A stretch of 64,000 nt of DNA from Candidatus Pullichristensenella stercorigallinarum (lineage in GTDB: Bacteria > Bacillota > Clostridia > Christensenellales > Aristaeellaceae). Of the stretch, positions 64 through 59,336 are shown piece by piece (the stretch's first letter is position 1; each line of letters opens with the position of its first letter). The stretch lies in assembly GCA_018712945.1 (NCBI GenBank), contig DVFZ01000122.1, positions 25,322-89,321 on the forward strand, written 5' to 3'. The notes under the pieces were generated by a model, which made no database searches, was not told the origin of the DNA, and saw nothing but the letters and a program-made list of their open reading frames with translations. The position numbers and the translations under genes are program-made.

Positions 64-330
64 GCCTGCCCCGGACGCGAAAGTCCGGGGCAGGCCCAGA
101 ACGCTGCCAAAGCCTGCAAACGCAAAAATTGCCCTGATAAAATAAAAATCAGAGGCAATTTTTGCTTCCTGCGTCAGCTGCGCATGCCCTCTTCGGTCGC
201 TCACGTCCATGTAAGCTCCCCTGTCCGCAAGTTTGCTCCTTTATCTTGCGGGCTTTTGAATCCCTCTGGCAGCCTGTCGGTTTTGCCAATATCCTGGGTC
301 TGCCCCGGACCTTCGCGTCCGGGGCAGACC
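64..330 (+). repeat. Family A repeat, copy A1
   Basis: This is a dispersed element with a core of about 200 bp (96-296). The core carries an internal hairpin, CAAAAATTGCC with GGCAATTTTTG, and a block shared with copies A2-A4 that includes CTTACGTCCATGTAAGCTCC or close variants. It is bounded by two hairpins. The left one (64-95) and the right one (297-330) share the stem CTGCCCCGGAC/GTCCGGGGCAG, and their loops are near reverse complements. The right hairpin lies about 22 bp past the stop of the minus-strand DUF4432 gene, so it may be that gene's terminator hairpin. Short ORFs inside are not supported as genes. Bases 1-63 hold nothing I can identify. Confidence 0.8.
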
Positions 331-2649: not shown

Positions 2650-3364
2650 TGCGGCAACTATATTGATCGTTGAGGATGACGAGCGCATCCGCGGCCTGAT
2701 CCGCACCGTGCTTGCCGGCGCGGGCTACGTCACGTTGGAGACGGGCAACGCCACCTCAGCCCTTTCCATGCTGGCCTCGCACCGGCCCGACCTGATGGTT
2801 TTGGATCTGGGCCTTCCCGACCGGGATGGGCAGGAGCTTTTGCGGGAGATACGTTCGTGGTCGAACGTACCGGTGGTGGTAGTTTCCGCGCGTGGGCAGG
2901 AGCGCGACAAGGTGCGCGCCCTGGATGGCGGCGCGGACGACTATATTACCAAGCCCTTTGGCACCGAGGAACTGCTCGCACGCATCCGTGCCGCCCTGCG
3001 CCATGGCCAGCGCATGGCCGAGGGGGAAAAGAGCGTTTACAACATTGGCGGTTTGCAGGTGGATACCGAGCGCCGCATTGTGCGCGTGGATGGCCGCGAG
3101 GTGCATCTGACGCAAATCGAATACAAAATCGTCACCCTGCTGTGCCGCAACGCCGGCAAGGTGCTTACGCACGACAGCATGATTCGCGAGGTATGGGGCC
3201 CGTTTTCCAACTGCGATACCCAGCTTTTGCGCGTAAACATGGCCAATATCCGCCGCAAAATCGAAAAAGACCCCGCCATGCCCGAATACATCCTCACCGA
3301 AATCGGCGTAGGCTACCGCATGGCTGAGGTCGGCAGTGCCGACGGCCAGAGCTGCCGCGAGTGA
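2642..3364 (+). CDS. kdpE: KdpE-type response regulator
   Basis: This is an OmpR/KdpE-type regulator of 240 residues. The receiver domain shows acidic residues EDD (11-13), phosphoacceptor Asp55 in VLDLGLPD and Lys104 in ITKPFG. The C-terminal winged helix ends in the usual GVGYRMAE. GGAGGAAGAAACGC precedes the ATG, which overlaps the kinase gene. The last residues after MAE (VGSADGQSCRE) and the stop codon are encoded by family B repeat B1, so the repeat has replaced or extended the natural C-terminus. It probably regulates transport genes elsewhere, since no kdpFABC genes are adjacent. Confidence 0.88.
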   Translation: MRNAATILIVEDDERIRGLIRTVLAGAGYVTLETGNATSALSMLASHRPDLMVLDLGLPDRDGQELLREIRSWSNVPVVVVSARGQERDKVRALDGGADDYITKPFGTEELLARIRAALRHGQRMAEGEKSVYNIGGLQVDTERRIVRVDGREVHLTQIEYKIVTLLCRNAGKVLTHDSMIREVWGPFSNCDTQLLRVNMANIRRKIEKDPAMPEYILTEIGVGYRMAEVGSADGQSCRE

Positions 3365-3789
3365 GCGGCGCGCGCCCGCCCCACGAGCAGGGGGACGGGC
3401 GCGCTTTGTTGCGTTTCGATTGATGCGGGAGTACGAATACGCGCCGGGCGGCTCACGCGCAGGAGCCGCCCGGCTTGCGTTGCAGGGTTGCGATTCTTGC
3501 GCGGCAGCCAATGGGATTCTTAAGGGATAAATCCCTTAAGCGGGTGCGGGCAGGGCCCGCCGTAGCCCCGCCGGAACCATGGCCCTGCGCGTGTGGCCAA
3601 GCGGCAAAACGCCCCGCCCGCCGTTCCCCGCGCGCCCGGCAACAGCCAGCTTGCACGAGGAAGAATTTTGCCCGCCGCCATCCCAAAACCGGGCGCGCGC
3701 CTTCCCGAAGCGCCCTTGCCGCAGGCAAGCAGCGTCGCCCCGCACCCACGCAGCGCCCCTTGCCCCAGCGGGGCAAGGCAGCGCCAACC
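3329..3789 (+). repeat. Family B repeat, full-length copy B1
   Basis: The element starts inside the last codons of kdpE with GTCGGCAGTGCCGAC, a hairpin with an AGT triloop. A terminator-like hairpin follows (about 3381-3412; GCGCGCCCG arm, then TTTGTTGCG). Next come GCCGGGCGGCTC/GAGCCGCCCGGC (3447-3474), CTTAAGGGATAAATCCCTTAAG (3519-3540) and a GC-rich tail with CTTGCCCCAGCGGGGCAAG. It is nearly identical over its whole length to the inverted copy B2 downstream of carB. ORFs in this stretch on both strands have no family resemblance and are treated as spurious. Confidence 0.8.
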
Positions 3790-3852
3790 GAAGAAATCCG
3801 CACCCTAGCGGCCAACGATATCTTCCCAAGGCCGGAGTGGCCGTGATGGTGC

Positions 3853-4110
3853 GCCCCTGCCCTATCAAGAATGGAGCAGAGCGTTGACAAAGCCCGCAAA
3901 CGCGAAGATTACCCAGATCAATTCAATATAGATTCAAAGGCAATTTTCGCCTCTTGCGTCAGCTGTACTTACAGGCTGCGGTCACTTACGTCCATGTAAG
4001 CTCCCCTGCCTGCAAGTTTGCAGCCTTGTCTTGCAGGCTTTCCTGCCGCTCATGGGATGTAGACTTTGCCAATGTCCCGGCGTCCCTGCTCCATCAAGAA
4101 TGAAACAGGC
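3853..4110 (+). repeat. Family A repeat, degenerate copy A2
   Basis: The core aligns by eye with A1 and A4: AAAGCCCGCAAACGCGAAGATTACCC, CTTGCGTCAGCTG, CACTTACGTCCATGTAAGCTCCCC and CTGCAAGTTTGC. Its flanking hairpins are decayed but still related to each other: CCTGCCCTATCAAGAATGGAGCAG on the left and CCTGCTCCATCAAGAATGAAACAGG on the right. The rest of the gap up to 4424 contains only GC-rich sequence in which I recognise no gene. Confidence 0.65.
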
Positions 4111-6331: not shown

Positions 6332-6797
6332 TTGGCGCTGCCTTGCCCTGGTGGGGCAAGGGACGCTGCGTGGGTGCGGGGCGACGCTGCTTGCCTGCGG
6401 CAAGGGCGCTTCGGGAAGGCGCGCGCCCGATTTTGGGATGGCGGCGGTGGGCGAAATTTTCTCACGTGCAAGCTGGCTGTTGCCGGGCGCGCGGGGAACG
6501 GCGGGCGGAGTGTTTTGCCGCTTAGCCACACGCGCAGGGTCATGGTTCCGGCGGGGCTACGGCGGGCCCTGCCCGCACCCGCTTAAGGGACTTGTCCCTT
6601 AAGAATCCCATTGGCTGCCGCGCAAGAATCGCAACCCTGCAACGCAAGCCGGGCGGCTCCTGCTCCTGAGCCGCCCGGCGGTTGTACGTACTCCCGCATC
6701 AATCGAAACGCAACAAAGCGCGCCCGCCCCCTACTCGTGGGGCGGGCGCGCGTCGCTCCAACGCGGCAGCGCTGGCAGCCGGCACCGCCGGCCGGCC
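6332..6797 (-). repeat. Family B repeat, full-length copy B2
   Basis: This inverted full-length copy begins directly after the TAG stop of carB-dapF-like with GCCGGCGGTGCCGGC. It carries the terminator hairpin GCGCGCCCGCCCC/GGGGCGGGCGCGC followed by TTTGTTGCG, then the GCCGGGCGGCTC stem, then the CTTAAGGGAC...GTCCCTTAAG hairpin and the GC-rich tail. It is nearly identical to B1 apart from compensating or loop changes. It is the likely terminator of the arginine operon. Confidence 0.8.
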
Positions 6798-33858: not shown

Positions 33859-34883
33859 CCACACAGGCGCACAAGGGCAAGCGATCCCTGACAAAGACGC
33901 TGGGCAATTACAGCTTTATCCTCATCTTTGCCTTTATCCTCATTGCCTACCTCATCATCAACGCCGGCGCAACTACGCTCAACGGCGTGATGAACATCCT
34001 CCGCCACTCGGCCGTAGTGGGCATCATGGCCTTTGGCATGGGCCTTGTTATCATCACCGGCGGCATCGACCTGTCCGTGGGTTCAATGCTTTCGCTGATT
34101 GGCGGATTGGGCGTGGTGGCGTTCAACGCCTCCAACTCCGTGATACTTACGTTTTTGACGGTCGTGCTGGTCGGCTGTGTGCTGGGCTTTTTCAACGGCA
34201 TACTCATCGGCAAGGTGAAAATGCCGCCGTTCATCGTCACGCTGGCCACCATGCTGATTTACCGCTCCGTGGCGCAGTATTACCTGCGCACGCTGCGCCT
34301 GTCCATCTACAACATGGATGCCACGCTTTCGGCCTTTGATTCGTTCTACGACTTCGGCCAGTACAAAGTATTCGGCGTGATCCCGATGGCGGGCGTAATC
34401 ATGATCCTTGTCACGGTCATCATGGTGTTTGTCTCCACCTGCACAAAGTACGGCAAGAGCGTATACGCCGTGGGCAGCAACGAAAAGGCGGCGCGGCTGG
34501 CCGGTATCAACGTGGAATGGACGCATGTTTCCGTTTATACCATTACTGGCGCGCTGTGCGGCATCAGCGGCTTTATGTGGTTGGCCATGAACGGCTCGGT
34601 AGACCCGGCCACCATCGGCCAGAGCAACGAAATGTATGCCATTGCCGCGGTGGTTATCGGCGGCATCAGCATGAGCGGCGGCAAGGGCAAGCTGCTGGGC
34701 GTGCTGTTCGGCGCCATGAGCTACACCATCATTGATAAGATCATTTCCTCTCTGGGACTGGACGCTCTCATCAATGATACCATCAAGGGTTCCATTCTGC
34801 TGTTGGCGGTATTTGTGCAAATCGCCATTCCCGCCATTCGCAGCAAGTTCCAGCGCGTAAAGCCGGCCGGCAGTGCCGGCTGA
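33855..34883 (+). CDS. Sugar ABC transporter permease (RbsC type)
   Basis: The protein has 342 residues and about 8-10 hydrophobic segments. Family marks are GMGLVIITGGIDLSVGSML, VKMPPFIVTLATMLIYR, and GSNEKAARLAGINVEW, the cytoplasmic ATPase-contact loop. It forms the membrane channel of the CUT2 importer. The ATG overlaps the ATPase stop in an ATGA. The last codons (PAGSAG) and TGA are contributed by family B repeat B3a, so the C-terminus has been altered by the repeat. Confidence 0.93.
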   Translation: MTTQAHKGKRSLTKTLGNYSFILIFAFILIAYLIINAGATTLNGVMNILRHSAVVGIMAFGMGLVIITGGIDLSVGSMLSLIGGLGVVAFNASNSVILTFLTVVLVGCVLGFFNGILIGKVKMPPFIVTLATMLIYRSVAQYYLRTLRLSIYNMDATLSAFDSFYDFGQYKVFGVIPMAGVIMILVTVIMVFVSTCTKYGKSVYAVGSNEKAARLAGINVEWTHVSVYTITGALCGISGFMWLAMNGSVDPATIGQSNEMYAIAAVVIGGISMSGGKGKLLGVLFGAMSYTIIDKIISSLGLDALINDTIKGSILLLAVFVQIAIPAIRSKFQRVKPAGSAG

Positions 34884-35058
34884 CAGAGCTGCCGCTCGTG
34901 AGTGTCGAACCCCTGCCCCACGAGTAGAGGGCAGGGGTTCTTTGTTGCGTTTTGGATTGGGAGAGAGTGCGAAGCGCGCCGGACGGCCCATGAGCAGGGG
35001 CCATCCGGCTGTCGTTGTAACATCGGTGTGCCTTGCGGCAGCAAATGGGATTCTCAAG
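34866..35058 (+). repeat. Family B repeat, short copy B3a
   Basis: The element begins in the permease's last codons with GCCGGCAGTGCCGGC. It holds terminator stem ACCCCTGCCC/GGGCAGGGGT followed by TCTTTGTTGCG, stem GCCGGACGGCCC/GGGCCATCCGGC, and the GCGGCAGCAAATGGGATTCTCAAGG motif, after which copy B3b begins directly. Confidence 0.82.
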
Positions 35059-35528
35059 GAGGCCGGCAGTGCCGGCTGACAGAGCTGCCGCTCGTGAGCG
35101 GCGAACCCCTGCCCCACGAGTAGAGGGCAGGGGTTCTTTGTTGCGTTTTGGGTTGGGAGAGAGTGCGAAGCGCGCCGGACGGCCCACGAGCAGGGGCCGC
35201 CCGGCTGTCGTTGTAACATCAGTGTGCCTCGCGGCAGCAAATGGGATTCTCAAGGGACTTGTCCCTTGAGCGGGTGCGGGCAGAGTCCGCCGTAGCCCCG
35301 CCGGAGGCATGGCCTTGCTCGGATGGAAAGTAGAGTTCTACGCCCGCCGTTCTCTGGCGCGTCTGACAACAGGCTGGCCTGAGCGCACAAGTATTTCGCC
35401 CACTACCAACATACCGATCAAAATCCGACGCGCCATTTCCCACAGCGCCCTTGCCCCGATGGGGCAAGCAGCGCCACTCCGCACCTCCACAGCGTCCCTT
35501 GCCCCATCGGGGCAAGGCAGCGTCATCC
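35059..35528 (+). repeat. Family B repeat, full-length copy B3b in tandem
   Basis: This is a second, nearly identical unit in direct tandem with B3a, extending through CAAGGGACTTGTCCCTTG and the long tail with CTTGCCCCATCGGGGCAAG. The tail aligns with B1 and B2 but is more diverged. The region from 35529 to 35751 is AT-richer. It holds a minus-strand stretch (YLSERPIVSSVSYRHKEFKAVVWDGKG) that may be a gene remnant, but I cannot assign it. Confidence 0.8.
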
Positions 35529-35848: not shown

Positions 35849-36649
35849 ATGAACGATTTGCTTCTCGCGTTTGCAATGACGCTCATTGCCGGACTGAGCA
35901 CCGGCATTGGCAGCTTGATTGCCTTTCTCGCCAAGCGCACCAGCCGCCGCTTTCTGTCGGTGAGTCTGGGCTTTTCGGCGGGCGTGATGGTTTATGTATC
36001 CATGGTGGAAATTCTCGCCACGGCGCGGGAATCGCTGGCGCGGCAATGGGGCGCGCGCGGCGGCGCGTGGGCCACGGTAGCGGCGTTTTTCGGAGGCATG
36101 CTGCTCATCGCCGTGATCGACAAGCTGATCCCCTCAGAGGAAAACCCCCATGAGGTGCGCCTGGTGGAAAACGAGCGGAAAAGCGCGCCGCGGCCGCAAA
36201 AGCTGATGCGCATGGGTGTGCTTACAGCGTTGGCCATTGCCGTACACAACTTCCCCGAGGGACTGGCGACGTTTGTTTCCGCCCTGCAAGAGCCAAACGT
36301 GGCCATTCCCATCGTGGCGGCCATCGCTATTCACAATATTCCCGAGGGCATTGCCGTTTCCGTACCCATTTATCAGGCTACTGGCTCGCGGCGCAAGGCG
36401 TTCTGCTATTCGTTCCTTTCCGGCCTGGCCGAGCCGCTGGGCGCGGTGGTGGGCTATCTGCTGCTTTTGCCGGTGATGAACGACGCCGTGTTTGGCATTA
36501 TTTTCGCCGGTGTAGCGGGCATCATGGTGTTTATCTCCTTTGACGAGCTGTTGCCCGCCGCCCGCGAATACGGCGAACACCATCTATCCATTTACGGCCT
36601 GATCTCCGGCATGGCGGTAATGGCCGTAAGCCTTTTATTGTTTTTATAG
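35849..36649 (+). CDS. ZIP-family divalent metal transporter
   Basis: The protein has 266 residues and 7-8 hydrophobic segments, similar to ZupT. The metal-site helices are visible as [15 protein letters not shown] and [16 protein letters not shown], with [13 protein letters not shown] after. It should import Zn(II), possibly Fe or Mn, across the cytoplasmic membrane. The start is ATG 35849, 8 nt after GGGAGG; TTG 35843 is too close to the site. It has its own promoter with a putative metal-repressor site, and family B repeats follow its stop. Confidence 0.9.
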
Positions 36650-36653
36650 AGGG

Positions 36654-36912
36654 CGGCAGTGCCGCCAGCCAGAGCTGCCGCGTTTGTGTGATCGCCCCTC
36701 TGCCCCGTGGATTATGGGGCAGGGGGGCTTTGTTGCGTTTCTGGTTGGGGAAGAGTGCGAAGCGCACTGGGCGGCTCAGGAGCAGGAGCCGTCCGGCGTG
36801 TGTTCGTACTCTCATATCAATCGGAACGCAACAAAACACGCCTGCCCCCTACTCGTGGGGCAGGCGTGTGTCGCTCCAACGCAGCAGCGCTGTCAGCCGG
36901 CACTGCCGGCCG
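36654..36912. repeat. Head-to-head family B repeats (B4f and B4r) between convergent genes
   Basis: Two half-elements face each other and share the central stem GGGCGGCTC/GAGCCGTCC. The forward one (from 36654) has GGCGGCAGTGCCGCC and stem GCCCCTCTGCCCC/GGGGCAGGGGGGC followed by TTTGTTGCG. The reverse one, read from 36912, has GCCGGCAGTGCCGGC and stem ACACGCCTGCCCC/GGGGCAGGCGTGT followed by TTTGTTGCG. Each half terminates one of the convergent genes; the reverse half also encodes the last residues and stop of the carboxypeptidase. Confidence 0.8.
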
Positions 36913-44875: not shown

Positions 44876-45093
44876 GCGCTGCCCAACCCGAGCAAGGGCA
44901 ACGCCCTTGCGAATCCCATTTTCCGCCGCGCAACCTTGCAACGAAAGCCGGGCGGCCCCTGCTCGTGGGCCGCCCGGCGGGCTTCGCACTTTCCCGCAGT
45001 CCAAAACGCAACAAAGAACCCCTGCCCCATTCCTGTCGGGGCAGGGGTTCGGCCGCCCAGTTCGCGGCAGCGCTGGCCGCCGGCATTGCCGGC
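44876..45093 (-). repeat. Family B repeat, copy B5
   Basis: Read on the minus strand it begins right after the permease TAG with GCCGGCAATGCCGGC, then stem AACCCCTGCCCC/GGGGCAGGGGTT with CTTTGTTGCG, stem GCCGGGCGGCCC/GGGCCGCCCGGC, GCGGCGGAAAATGGGATTCGC and CAAGGGCGTTGCCCTTG. The tail is shorter than in B1 and B2. Confidence 0.8.
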
Positions 45094-48889: not shown

Positions 48890-49187
48890 ACCAAATGCAA
48901 TGAATGAAAGATTTTTTGCGTTGACAAAATATATATTTGATAAAATGAAGAAAAAACGGTGAAGAAATTGCCTGCTAGTTATCGTTGGCGCTGTGGACAA
49001 CAACCGCGGGAGCGAGAAACGGACGGCTTTGAGAGGCGGCGCGCCGGGCATAATCGCCGTTCCAACAAATTCCCCGGGAGGATTCCTGAATCGCGTTTCT
49101 CCCCGCGGGCTTGCAATATCTTGCAATATAACATACATTCCGTGGCCGGGTGCGAAAAGGAGGGCTTTCAAGGGAAAGCATAAAATT

Positions 49188-49446
49188 GTCCCCGCGCGCA
49201 TAAGGCACGCGGGGACGCAGGATGTTGACAAAGTCAACAGACTGCCAGAGGGATGAGAAAGCCTGCAAGGCAAGGAAGCAAACTTGCAGGCAAGGGAGCT
49301 TACATGGACGTAAGTGACCGCGGGCTGCATGTGCAGCTGACGCAGGAAACAAAAATTGCCTCTGATTCTCTTTGTTCAGGGCAATTTTTGCGTTTGCAGG
49401 TTTTGTCAGCGCTCTGTGTCCCCGCGCGCATAAAGCACGCGGGGAC
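49188..49446 (-). repeat. Family A repeat, inverted copy A3
   Basis: The core is the reverse complement of A1, A2 and A4: GTTGACAAAGTCAACAGACTGCCAGAGGGATGAGAAAGCCTGCAAG at one end, GGGAGCTTACATGGACGTAAGTGACCG in the middle, and the hairpin CAAAAATTGCC/GGCAATTTTTG. The flanks are GTCCCCGCG-CGCATAAGGCA-CGCGGGGAC (49188-49216) and the same with AAAGCA in the loop (49418-49446), in direct orientation. It lies 22 bp past the lacI-type stop. The ORF at 49253 (MRKPARQGSKLAGKG) is an artefact of the repeat. Confidence 0.85.
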
Positions 49447-49468
49447 GCGCAATGGTCCAAAGGCCCGC

Positions 49469-50470
49469 TCAACAGCTGTCTCTGACCGTCAGCGTAACCG
49501 GCAGCACGACGTGCTTGGGAGGCACCGGTTCTTCGCTGGAAAGATTGTCCAGCAAAAGCTTCATCGCCTCGTCGGCAAGCCGGATTGGGGACGAATGCAG
49601 CGATGTCAGCGACACGGGGATCGACAAAAAAGACTCCGTATCCCCGTTGCCAACCACGCGGATATCCTTTGGAACGCCCTTTCCCAGCTTCTTGAGGGAA
49701 CAAATCGCGTCATAAGCCACCGCGTCGTTGAAGGCGAAAATGCTGTCGATATCGGGATGCCTGGCGAGTTCTTCCGTGAGGATGTCGTATGTTTCCCCCT
49801 GGACGGATGTCAAGCGGTGAAAAACCATATTTTCCGCAACCGACAGGCCGCTGTCCACCAGCCCCTGCTCAAACGAATCCCTGCGCCATGGAAAGTGTTC
49901 CAGATTCAGGAACAAAATTTTCCGGCAGCCCCGGCTGGCCATATATGTCGCGGCCAAATAGGCTCCGCCCATATGGTCGCAGGTGGCGCTGTTCATGGAC
50001 GCCGCGACCGGCGGGTGCTCCAGAATGACAAAGGGCACGCGCGCCTGCTCCAACATTTTGACGTTTTCCAGGTAGCCATGGCTGGGGTCGATCAGCATGC
50101 CGTCCACGCCCTGCCGCAACGCGGTACGGATGGCGTTGCGCTCCGTCTGCGCGCACATGTCGATGTTCAGTATAATCATCGAATAGCCATGTTCGCGCGC
50201 AATTTCCTCGGCGTGCTTTGCAAACAGGCTCCAAAAGCTGTTTGTGATATCCACAACGCTCAGGGCGATACACATGCTCCTGCCGGAGCGCAGGGCGTTT
50301 GCCGCGCCGTTCATGACATAGCCCATCTCGTTTGCGGCGGCGCGGATGGCCGCCCTTGTTCGCAAGGCGATATCGTCGCAGTCCCGCAAAGCTTTGGAAA
50401 CTGTGATAACGCTAAAACCCGTCCTGTCGGCGATTTGCTTTAGAGTTACTCTGTTTGATGCCTTACCCAT
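49469..50470 (-). CDS. LacI-family transcriptional regulator
   Basis: The protein has 333 residues. The N-terminal HTH is VTLKQIADRTGFSVITVSKALRDCDDIALRTRAAI with the hinge helix NGAANALRSGRS; the C-terminal two-lobed sugar-sensing domain follows (IALSVVDITNSFW, GMLIDPSHG, SIFAFNDAVAYDAI). It is last in a set with the GH127-like enzyme and Lpl-type importer. A matching LacI-type operator overlaps their promoter region at 55731, so it most likely represses this locus until a sugar ligand binds. Confidence 0.92.
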   Translation of the reverse strand: MGKASNRVTLKQIADRTGFSVITVSKALRDCDDIALRTRAAIRAAANEMGYVMNGAANALRSGRSMCIALSVVDITNSFWSLFAKHAEEIAREHGYSMIILNIDMCAQTERNAIRTALRQGVDGMLIDPSHGYLENVKMLEQARVPFVILEHPPVAASMNSATCDHMGGAYLAATYMASRGCRKILFLNLEHFPWRRDSFEQGLVDSGLSVAENMVFHRLTSVQGETYDILTEELARHPDIDSIFAFNDAVAYDAICSLKKLGKGVPKDIRVVGNGDTESFLSIPVSLTSLHSSPIRLADEAMKLLLDNLSSEEPVPPKHVVLPVTLTVRDSC

Positions 50471-56855: not shown

Positions 56856-57098
56856 CCCGACTGAATGTTGGGCCGCCGAACCGCTCGCGCGGGTGGCGGC
56901 CTGGTTTTGGATCGCCCCTGGATAGCGGCGGCGGGGAATGCCACCGGTCTATGCTGCGCGCCCGCCATGGGGACAGGAGGCGCAACCGGACGCGGGACGG
57001 ACATCTTCCTGCTTGATGGGCGCGGCATTTGTATTGGCAGCGCCGGACTGATTCCCATTGCTGAATTGGCCGGGAAGACCCGCCCGGCGCGCAAAGAG

Positions 57099-57350
57099 CG
57101 GCGGACGCATATACGTCCGCCGCCCAAAGCGCTGATAAACCCCGCAAACGCAAAAATTGCCCTGATCAAAGAGAAATCAGAGGCAATTTTTGCTTCCTGC
57201 GTCAGCTGCACATGCAGCCTGCGGTCACTTACGTCCATGTAAGCTCCCTTGTCTGCAAGTTTGCTTCCTTGTCTTGTAGGCTTTCTCATCCCTCTGGCAG
57301 TCTGTTGACTTTGTCAACATCCTGAACGGCGGACGCATATGCGTCCGCCG
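57099..57350 (+). repeat. Family A repeat, copy A4
   Basis: The core follows A1 closely: CCGCAAACGCAAAAATTGCCCTGATCA, GGCAATTTTTGCTTCCTGCGTCAGCTG, CACTTACGTCCATGTAAGCTCCC and GTTGACTTTGTCAAC. It is flanked by CGGCGGACG-CATATA-CGTCCGCCG (57099-57122) and CGGCGGACGC-ATAT-GCGTCCGCCG (57327-57350), which differ at one base. The right hairpin lies 28 bp past the groEL stop. The ORF at 56162-57289 on the minus strand is spurious. Confidence 0.85.
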
Positions 57351-57377
57351 CCATTTTTATGGGGTATGGGGTTTTGC

Positions 57378-59336
<1,959 letters not shown>

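Follow-up and report, generated by a model that had tools for sequence, protein, structure and literature searches.

Copies of a 200-bp MITE lie between duplicated terminator hairpins and are likely mobilised by an IS1182-family transposase

Results

MITE copies in the window

The window, i.e. the whole stretch of 64,000 nucleotides of Candidatus Pullichristensenella stercorigallinarum DNA that was analysed, contains four copies of one MITE of approximately 200 bp, each of them placed between two hairpins (Table 1). In the window, hairpins follow the stop codons of groEL, a LacI-type gene and a DUF4432 gene at a distance of approximately 22–26 bp. The first-pass annotation of this DNA had described four copies with a common core of about 200 bp (64–330, 3853–4110, 49188–49446 and 57099–57350), all of which were found again with refined limits. 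Further repeat families, dispersed over intergenic DNA and in part palindromic and GC-rich, occur at 3326–3596, 6630–6794, 34860–35528, 36649–36912 and 44929–44980, and among them is a 196-bp tandem duplication at 34860–35251.

Table 1. MITE copies, hairpins and adjacent genes, in window coordinates
Feature	Position	Strand	Remark
Hairpin copy left of first MITE copy	66..96	none	
MITE copy, 200 bp, ends CAGAACGCTGCCAAAG...GCCAATATCCTG	97..296	+	
Inverted-loop hairpin copy	297..327	none	reverse complement of 66–96 with 2 mismatches; downstream of DUF4432 gene stop
DUF4432 gene	353–1462	minus	
Decayed hairpin copy	3851..3876	none	5/26 mismatches to right copy 4080..4105
MITE copy, 203 bp	3877..4079	+	older and diverged
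Decayed hairpin copy	4080..4105	none	right partner of 3851..3876
Hairpin copy, 31 bp	49187..49217	none	1 mismatch to copy at 49417..49447
MITE copy, 199 bp	49218..49416	-	
Hairpin copy, 31 bp	49417..49447	none	just 3' of LacI-type gene stop
LacI-type gene	49469–50470	minus	
Left hairpin copy (TSD), 28 bp	57097..57124	none	2 mismatches to right copy
MITE copy, 200 bp, ends CAAAGCGCTGATAAAC...CTTTGTCAACATCCTG	57125..57324	+	
Right hairpin copy, 28 bp	57325..57352	none	approximately 26 bp downstream of groEL stop codon
groEL	57378–59009	minus	

At least 40 matches to the MITE core were detected in the same genome (assembly of 2.96 Mb in 130 contigs, 87% complete), and together with related genomes 55 complete copies were available. 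The plan of every copy, as read from the flanks, is hairpin X, CAGAGCGCTGACAAAG...core...CTTTGTCAACATCCTG, hairpin X, where X varies by copy. The terminal repeats (CAG-N4-YTGACAAAG) are constant and lie inside the hairpins; by direct count, the two ends match as inverted repeats at 12 of 16 positions (CAGAGCGCTGACAAAG and CAGGATGTTGACAAAG). Most copies are 200 bp long, and shorter versions of 129, 135 and 167 bp have the same ends. The first-pass annotation had taken the hairpins as the ends of the element and had remarked that the ends of an ordinary MITE would not vary between copies. This holds for the true ends (CAG...CTG), which the copies have in common and which are situated between the hairpins; the copy-specific "ends" of the annotation are target DNA. 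Being short, free of a transposase gene, present in multiple copies and equipped with terminal inverted repeats and a target-site duplication, the element joins the MITE class as a new member.

The pattern of the terminal inverted repeats was present in 77 of the 300 genomes and 27 of the 50 genera examined in the family, with some of the single matches being chance occurrences, and in several other genera MITEs with ends of this kind likewise lie between duplicated hairpins. A comparison of the core with Rfam gave no match at the gathering score. The minus strand of the copy at 57125–57324 had an unusually strong predicted RNA folding (z = -7.1). A consensus structure of 52 copies contained 47 double-change cells compared to a mean of 13 and a maximum of 26 after permutation, a count that can be inflated by kinship among the copies.

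Length and borders of the hairpin duplications

The left and right flanks of each copy were scored as direct or inverted repeats, with a score of at least 15 taken as a match. Such matches were obtained within 36 of the 55 copies, compared to 5 of 2970 combinations of the left flank of one copy with the right flank of another, and the best of these cross-copy pairs include common sites or copies with exchanged flanks. This comparison over copies collected with the core, which the first-pass annotation had proposed, bears out its observation that the hairpins are copy-specific and nearly agree on the two sides of one copy. In total, 34 of the 55 copies had a direct and five an inverted hairpin duplication. 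For the 34 copies with clear direct duplication, the duplication length of 19–40 bp followed the hairpin length with r = 0.96, and the mean difference between both lengths was 1.1 nt compared to 5.1 nt after permutation (0 of 20,000 permutations were as good). The borders of the duplication were found 0–3 nt from the stem feet, usually at 0–2 nt and once at 3 nt, and the overhang beyond the stem was mostly equal left and right. The 8 nt that follow the right hairpin contained 3.2 T on average and the 8 nt ahead of the left hairpin 3.2 A, and the flanks had the appearance of terminators in either orientation relative to the MITE. The hairpins represent target-site duplications: an intrinsic terminator that was already in place has been copied whole from foot to foot.

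Empty sites in sister genomes and complete plasmids

Orthologous sites without the element in sister genomes contain a single terminator hairpin. At the site in G006 (L085) that corresponds to copy L018, one hairpin is present in which the base of the stem is kept and the sequence is different, and a single hairpin was likewise observed at L099, L096, L097, L098 and L084. The first-pass annotation had offered two alternatives, the first being insertion into an existing 3' hairpin that is thereby duplicated, and had named empty sites lacking any hairpin as contrary evidence. In the comparison with orthologous sites the hairpin was present, and exact empty sites for two autonomous relatives were found in closed plasmids; the first alternative is strongly supported.

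Because draft genomes can mislead, plasmids deposited as complete (PLSDB) were examined. Hairpin repeats flanked elements with CAGACT.. ends from Rhizobium sp. Q54 (24 bp), Providencia rettgeri (28 bp) and Enterococcus faecium (ISEfa7 type; 20 bp and 25 bp). Four distinct ISEfa7 sites were sampled, and two of them had no hairpin repeat. IS1182 elements with GTTGAAAAAG-type ends (ISCfr1 and elements from Sphingobium, Variovorax, Paraburkholderia and Sinorhizobium) had repeats of 4–8 bp and no hairpin. Across the plasmid loci L205–L216, the elements were split by end type, CAGAC.. ends occurring with hairpin duplications and GTTGAAAAAG ends with repeats of 4–8 bp. The plasmid search for relatives of the MITE itself found none. 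Empty sites were predicted for two of these hairpin insertions by placing one hairpin between the flanks, and in both cases near-identical plasmids without the IS matched this query over 600 of 600 bp (AP026606.1 and NZ_AP026602.1 for E. faecium; NZ_CP096259.1 and others for P. rettgeri), so that there was one hairpin before insertion and two after.

IS1182-family transposases

Several MITE copies are adjoined by pieces of a transposon that ends with CAGACCATTGACAAAC and contains a transposase gene. The transposase P0001 (from L106) scored 442.4 bits on NF033551 (cut-off 270), which identifies it as a member of the IS1182 family, and this type of transposase has the domains PF05598 and PF13751 of an IS1182-type DDE transposase. 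Relatives were present in 35 of the 300 genomes of the family that were searched, and closely related transposases occur in draft genomes of Candidatus Pullichristensenella and other Clostridia. The nearest named relatives place the host in a gut lineage of Clostridia. In the same genome as the window, most copies of the transposon are broken at contig ends; five copies that could be paired across contig breaks carried matching hairpins on the left and on the right. Complete IS1182 elements on single contigs were flanked by perfect hairpin repeats of 20, 25, 25, 25, 31, 32 and 33 bp, and for some of them this held even at a transposase identity of only 34–37% to P0001. The complete IS elements are 1478–1609 bp long, with a single transposase gene and terminal inverted repeats matching at 12–14 of 15 positions.

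The ends of the MITE and of the resident IS are identical at 11–12 of 16 positions. A transposase copy with exactly the ends of the MITE was not found, which we count against the explanation that we prefer. The two kinds of element are linked by a bridging MITE in G044, since one of its ends is identical to an IS end over CAGACCATTGACAAACC. An IS1182-family transposase is the likely machinery behind the MITE, which would be mobilised in trans.

Copies with deviating flanks

The left and right hairpins were unrelated in approximately 8 of the 55 MITE copies and different in the complete IS copies L106, L168, L170 and L171. In some cases the missing partner hairpin sits beside another copy (L004 with L020, L008 with L040), and chains of loci sharing hairpins were observed (L004, L020, L074 and L133; L008 and L040). 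Recombination between copies or misassembly of the drafts is likely behind the unrelated hairpins. These copies, like the two ISEfa7 sites without a hairpin repeat and the copy L149, speak against the preferred explanation. One loop was inverted in 5 of 55 copies; at window 66–327, L034, L035, L089 and L161, the left and right hairpins are reverse complements, so that the loop of the palindrome has flipped during or after insertion. Inversion of a loop needs a later event, and such flips can follow insertion, because at the site common to L027 and L089 only one of the two genomes has the right loop inverted.

Discussion

We consider it highly probable that the repeated element is a 200-bp non-autonomous MITE that is moved by an IS1182-family DDE transposase and duplicates the whole target hairpin. 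In transposition by DDE enzymes, it is the 3' ends of the element that become joined to the target. In the present case, the transposase would pick a palindrome with perfectly or almost perfectly paired arms, in nearly all cases an intrinsic terminator and most likely in the form of an extruded cruciform; on each strand, a 3' end of the MITE would be joined to the hairpin at its 5' foot, and gap repair would copy the entire hairpin to both sides, with the consequence that the length of the target-site duplication equals that of the hairpin and that each insertion makes a second landing site. Recognition of a cruciform is suggested because the target sequences have nothing in common and the borders run from foot to foot; the strand-transfer chemistry would be that outlined here. 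With a terminator and T run kept on each side, insertion would be mild for the neighbouring genes, which would probably retain a working terminator owing to the duplication.

With DDE transposons, it is normally the enzyme that fixes the target duplication at a few bases, and some IS families generate long ones. A fixed stagger of approximately 28 bp by a transposase that merely prefers terminators could explain why many duplications measure 28–31 bp. We regard such a stagger as very improbable, because duplication length tracks hairpin length: over the range of 19–40 bp the duplications equal their hairpins within approximately 1 nt (r = 0.96; 0 of 20,000 permutations), and the duplications of 20–33 bp at autonomous elements each correspond to their own hairpin. 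The same very low probability is assigned to homogenised ends, the second alternative of the first-pass annotation. On this reading, the hairpins would be part of the element, and gene conversion or template switching would make them alike within a copy. Exchange within palindromes does occur, as the loop inversions in 5 of 55 copies and the comparison of L027 with L089 show, but the hairpin is present without the element at empty orthologous sites, exact empty sites exist in plasmids, and the common element ends are located inside the hairpins. Homogenisation is therefore not needed for the match between left and right, although loops were flipped in five copies and some copies have recombined.

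Repeats of at least 200 bp in short-read drafts might give rise to false hairpin pairs, and many contigs of the genome indeed end inside copies, while some copies have swapped hairpins. Nevertheless, we give hardly any credence to an assembly artefact, since misassembly would make the left and right hairpins differ instead of agree and the pattern recurs in plasmids deposited as complete and in several genera. A different transposase with the same target habit, with the IS1182 elements as mere neighbours of the MITE, would be compatible with the end identity of only 11–12 of 16 positions and with the failure to find an autonomous element with the exact MITE ends. This is somewhat less remote but still unlikely, as MITE and IS are alike in the CAG start, the TGACAAA core, the palindromic layout at one end, the target and the duplication, share hairpins in IS-hairpin-MITE arrays, and are identical over CAGACCATTGACAAACC at one end of the MITE from G044. 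Transposition by an IS1182-family enzyme with duplication of the hairpin remains our preferred explanation.

Among known systems, ISEfa7, an IS1182-family member on E. faecium plasmids, resembles the MITE by its CAGACTGTAGACAAAG ends and by hairpin duplications at two sites (20 bp and 25 bp), but it is autonomous (1536 bp), and two other sampled sites were without the repeat. ISCfr1-like IS1182 elements with GTTGAAAAAG ends have a transposase of the same family, approximately 30% identical to P0001, and differ by ordinary flanking repeats of 4–8 bp without a hairpin. An IS1202-type fixed long duplication was ruled out by the duplication length tracking the hairpin. Group IIC introns and attC-type integration were set aside, because both insert next to a hairpin without duplicating it. 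Duplication of the often palindromic CRISPR repeat by Cas1-Cas2, where staggered joining at both ends of a unit copies this unit, is an analogy only, since the enzymes are different. The duplicating mode appears to be a new variant within the IS1182 family, for members of which long direct repeats may already be listed in reviews; a table in a review of IS families reportedly gives a wide range of direct repeats for this family.

In staphylococci, the IS1182-family elements IS1272 and TnSha1 delete or replace a stem-loop and produce no target duplication (PMC5678879; PMC4923244). They share with the present system the type of transposase and the choice of stem-loops, often terminators, without sequence preference (PMC5678879; PMC4923244). 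Of these IS1272-type features, stem-loop targeting was found here, whereas loss of the stem-loop without target duplication was not: the entire stem-loop is duplicated, and one hairpin becomes two at exact empty sites. The first-pass annotation knew no named element with this design. The MITE does belong with the IS1182 family, in which IS1272 also targets hairpins, but the design itself stands apart in that IS1272 replaces the hairpin and does not duplicate it (PMC5678879; PMC4923244). Whole stem-loop duplication was drawn in 2017 as the hypothetical pathway b, an alternative to the IS1272 pathway, for which the relevant passages give no examples (PMC5678879). Our data fit pathway b of this scheme and provide natural examples of what was then, in those passages, only a possibility for IS1272. 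It is rather probable, with less certainty than for the MITE itself, that a branch of the IS1182 family with CAG-type ends reads DNA secondary structure, with the duplication set by the length of an extruded hairpin to whose two arms the element is joined at their 5' feet, and thereby copies terminators rather than destroying them and regenerates its landing site each time it inserts.

The dependence of duplication length on target structure makes it directly testable how a transposase can read a cruciform. It may also allow insertion at gene ends with the terminator left intact, and terminators become recombination points and repeat landing sites in several bacterial phyla. Other bacterial MITEs are likewise short, non-coding, multi-copy and intergenic, with terminal inverted repeats and strong RNA folding (PMC10969869), but here the target duplication is an entire terminator hairpin of variable length. 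A role of the MITE as structured RNA or single-stranded DNA is no more than possible, because related sequences may inflate the double-change count.

Arrays in which one hairpin is common to two elements, of the types IS-hairpin-MITE and MITE-hairpin-MITE, were observed at L019, L024 and L025 (contigs C72, C90 and C3 of the same genome as the window) and at L040 (G004, C57), and look as if the duplicated hairpin had been hit again as the next target. At L149 (G044, C87), a MITE-like copy occupies a non-hairpin site with the 7-bp repeat AAAACTT on both sides, which suggests a second target mode.
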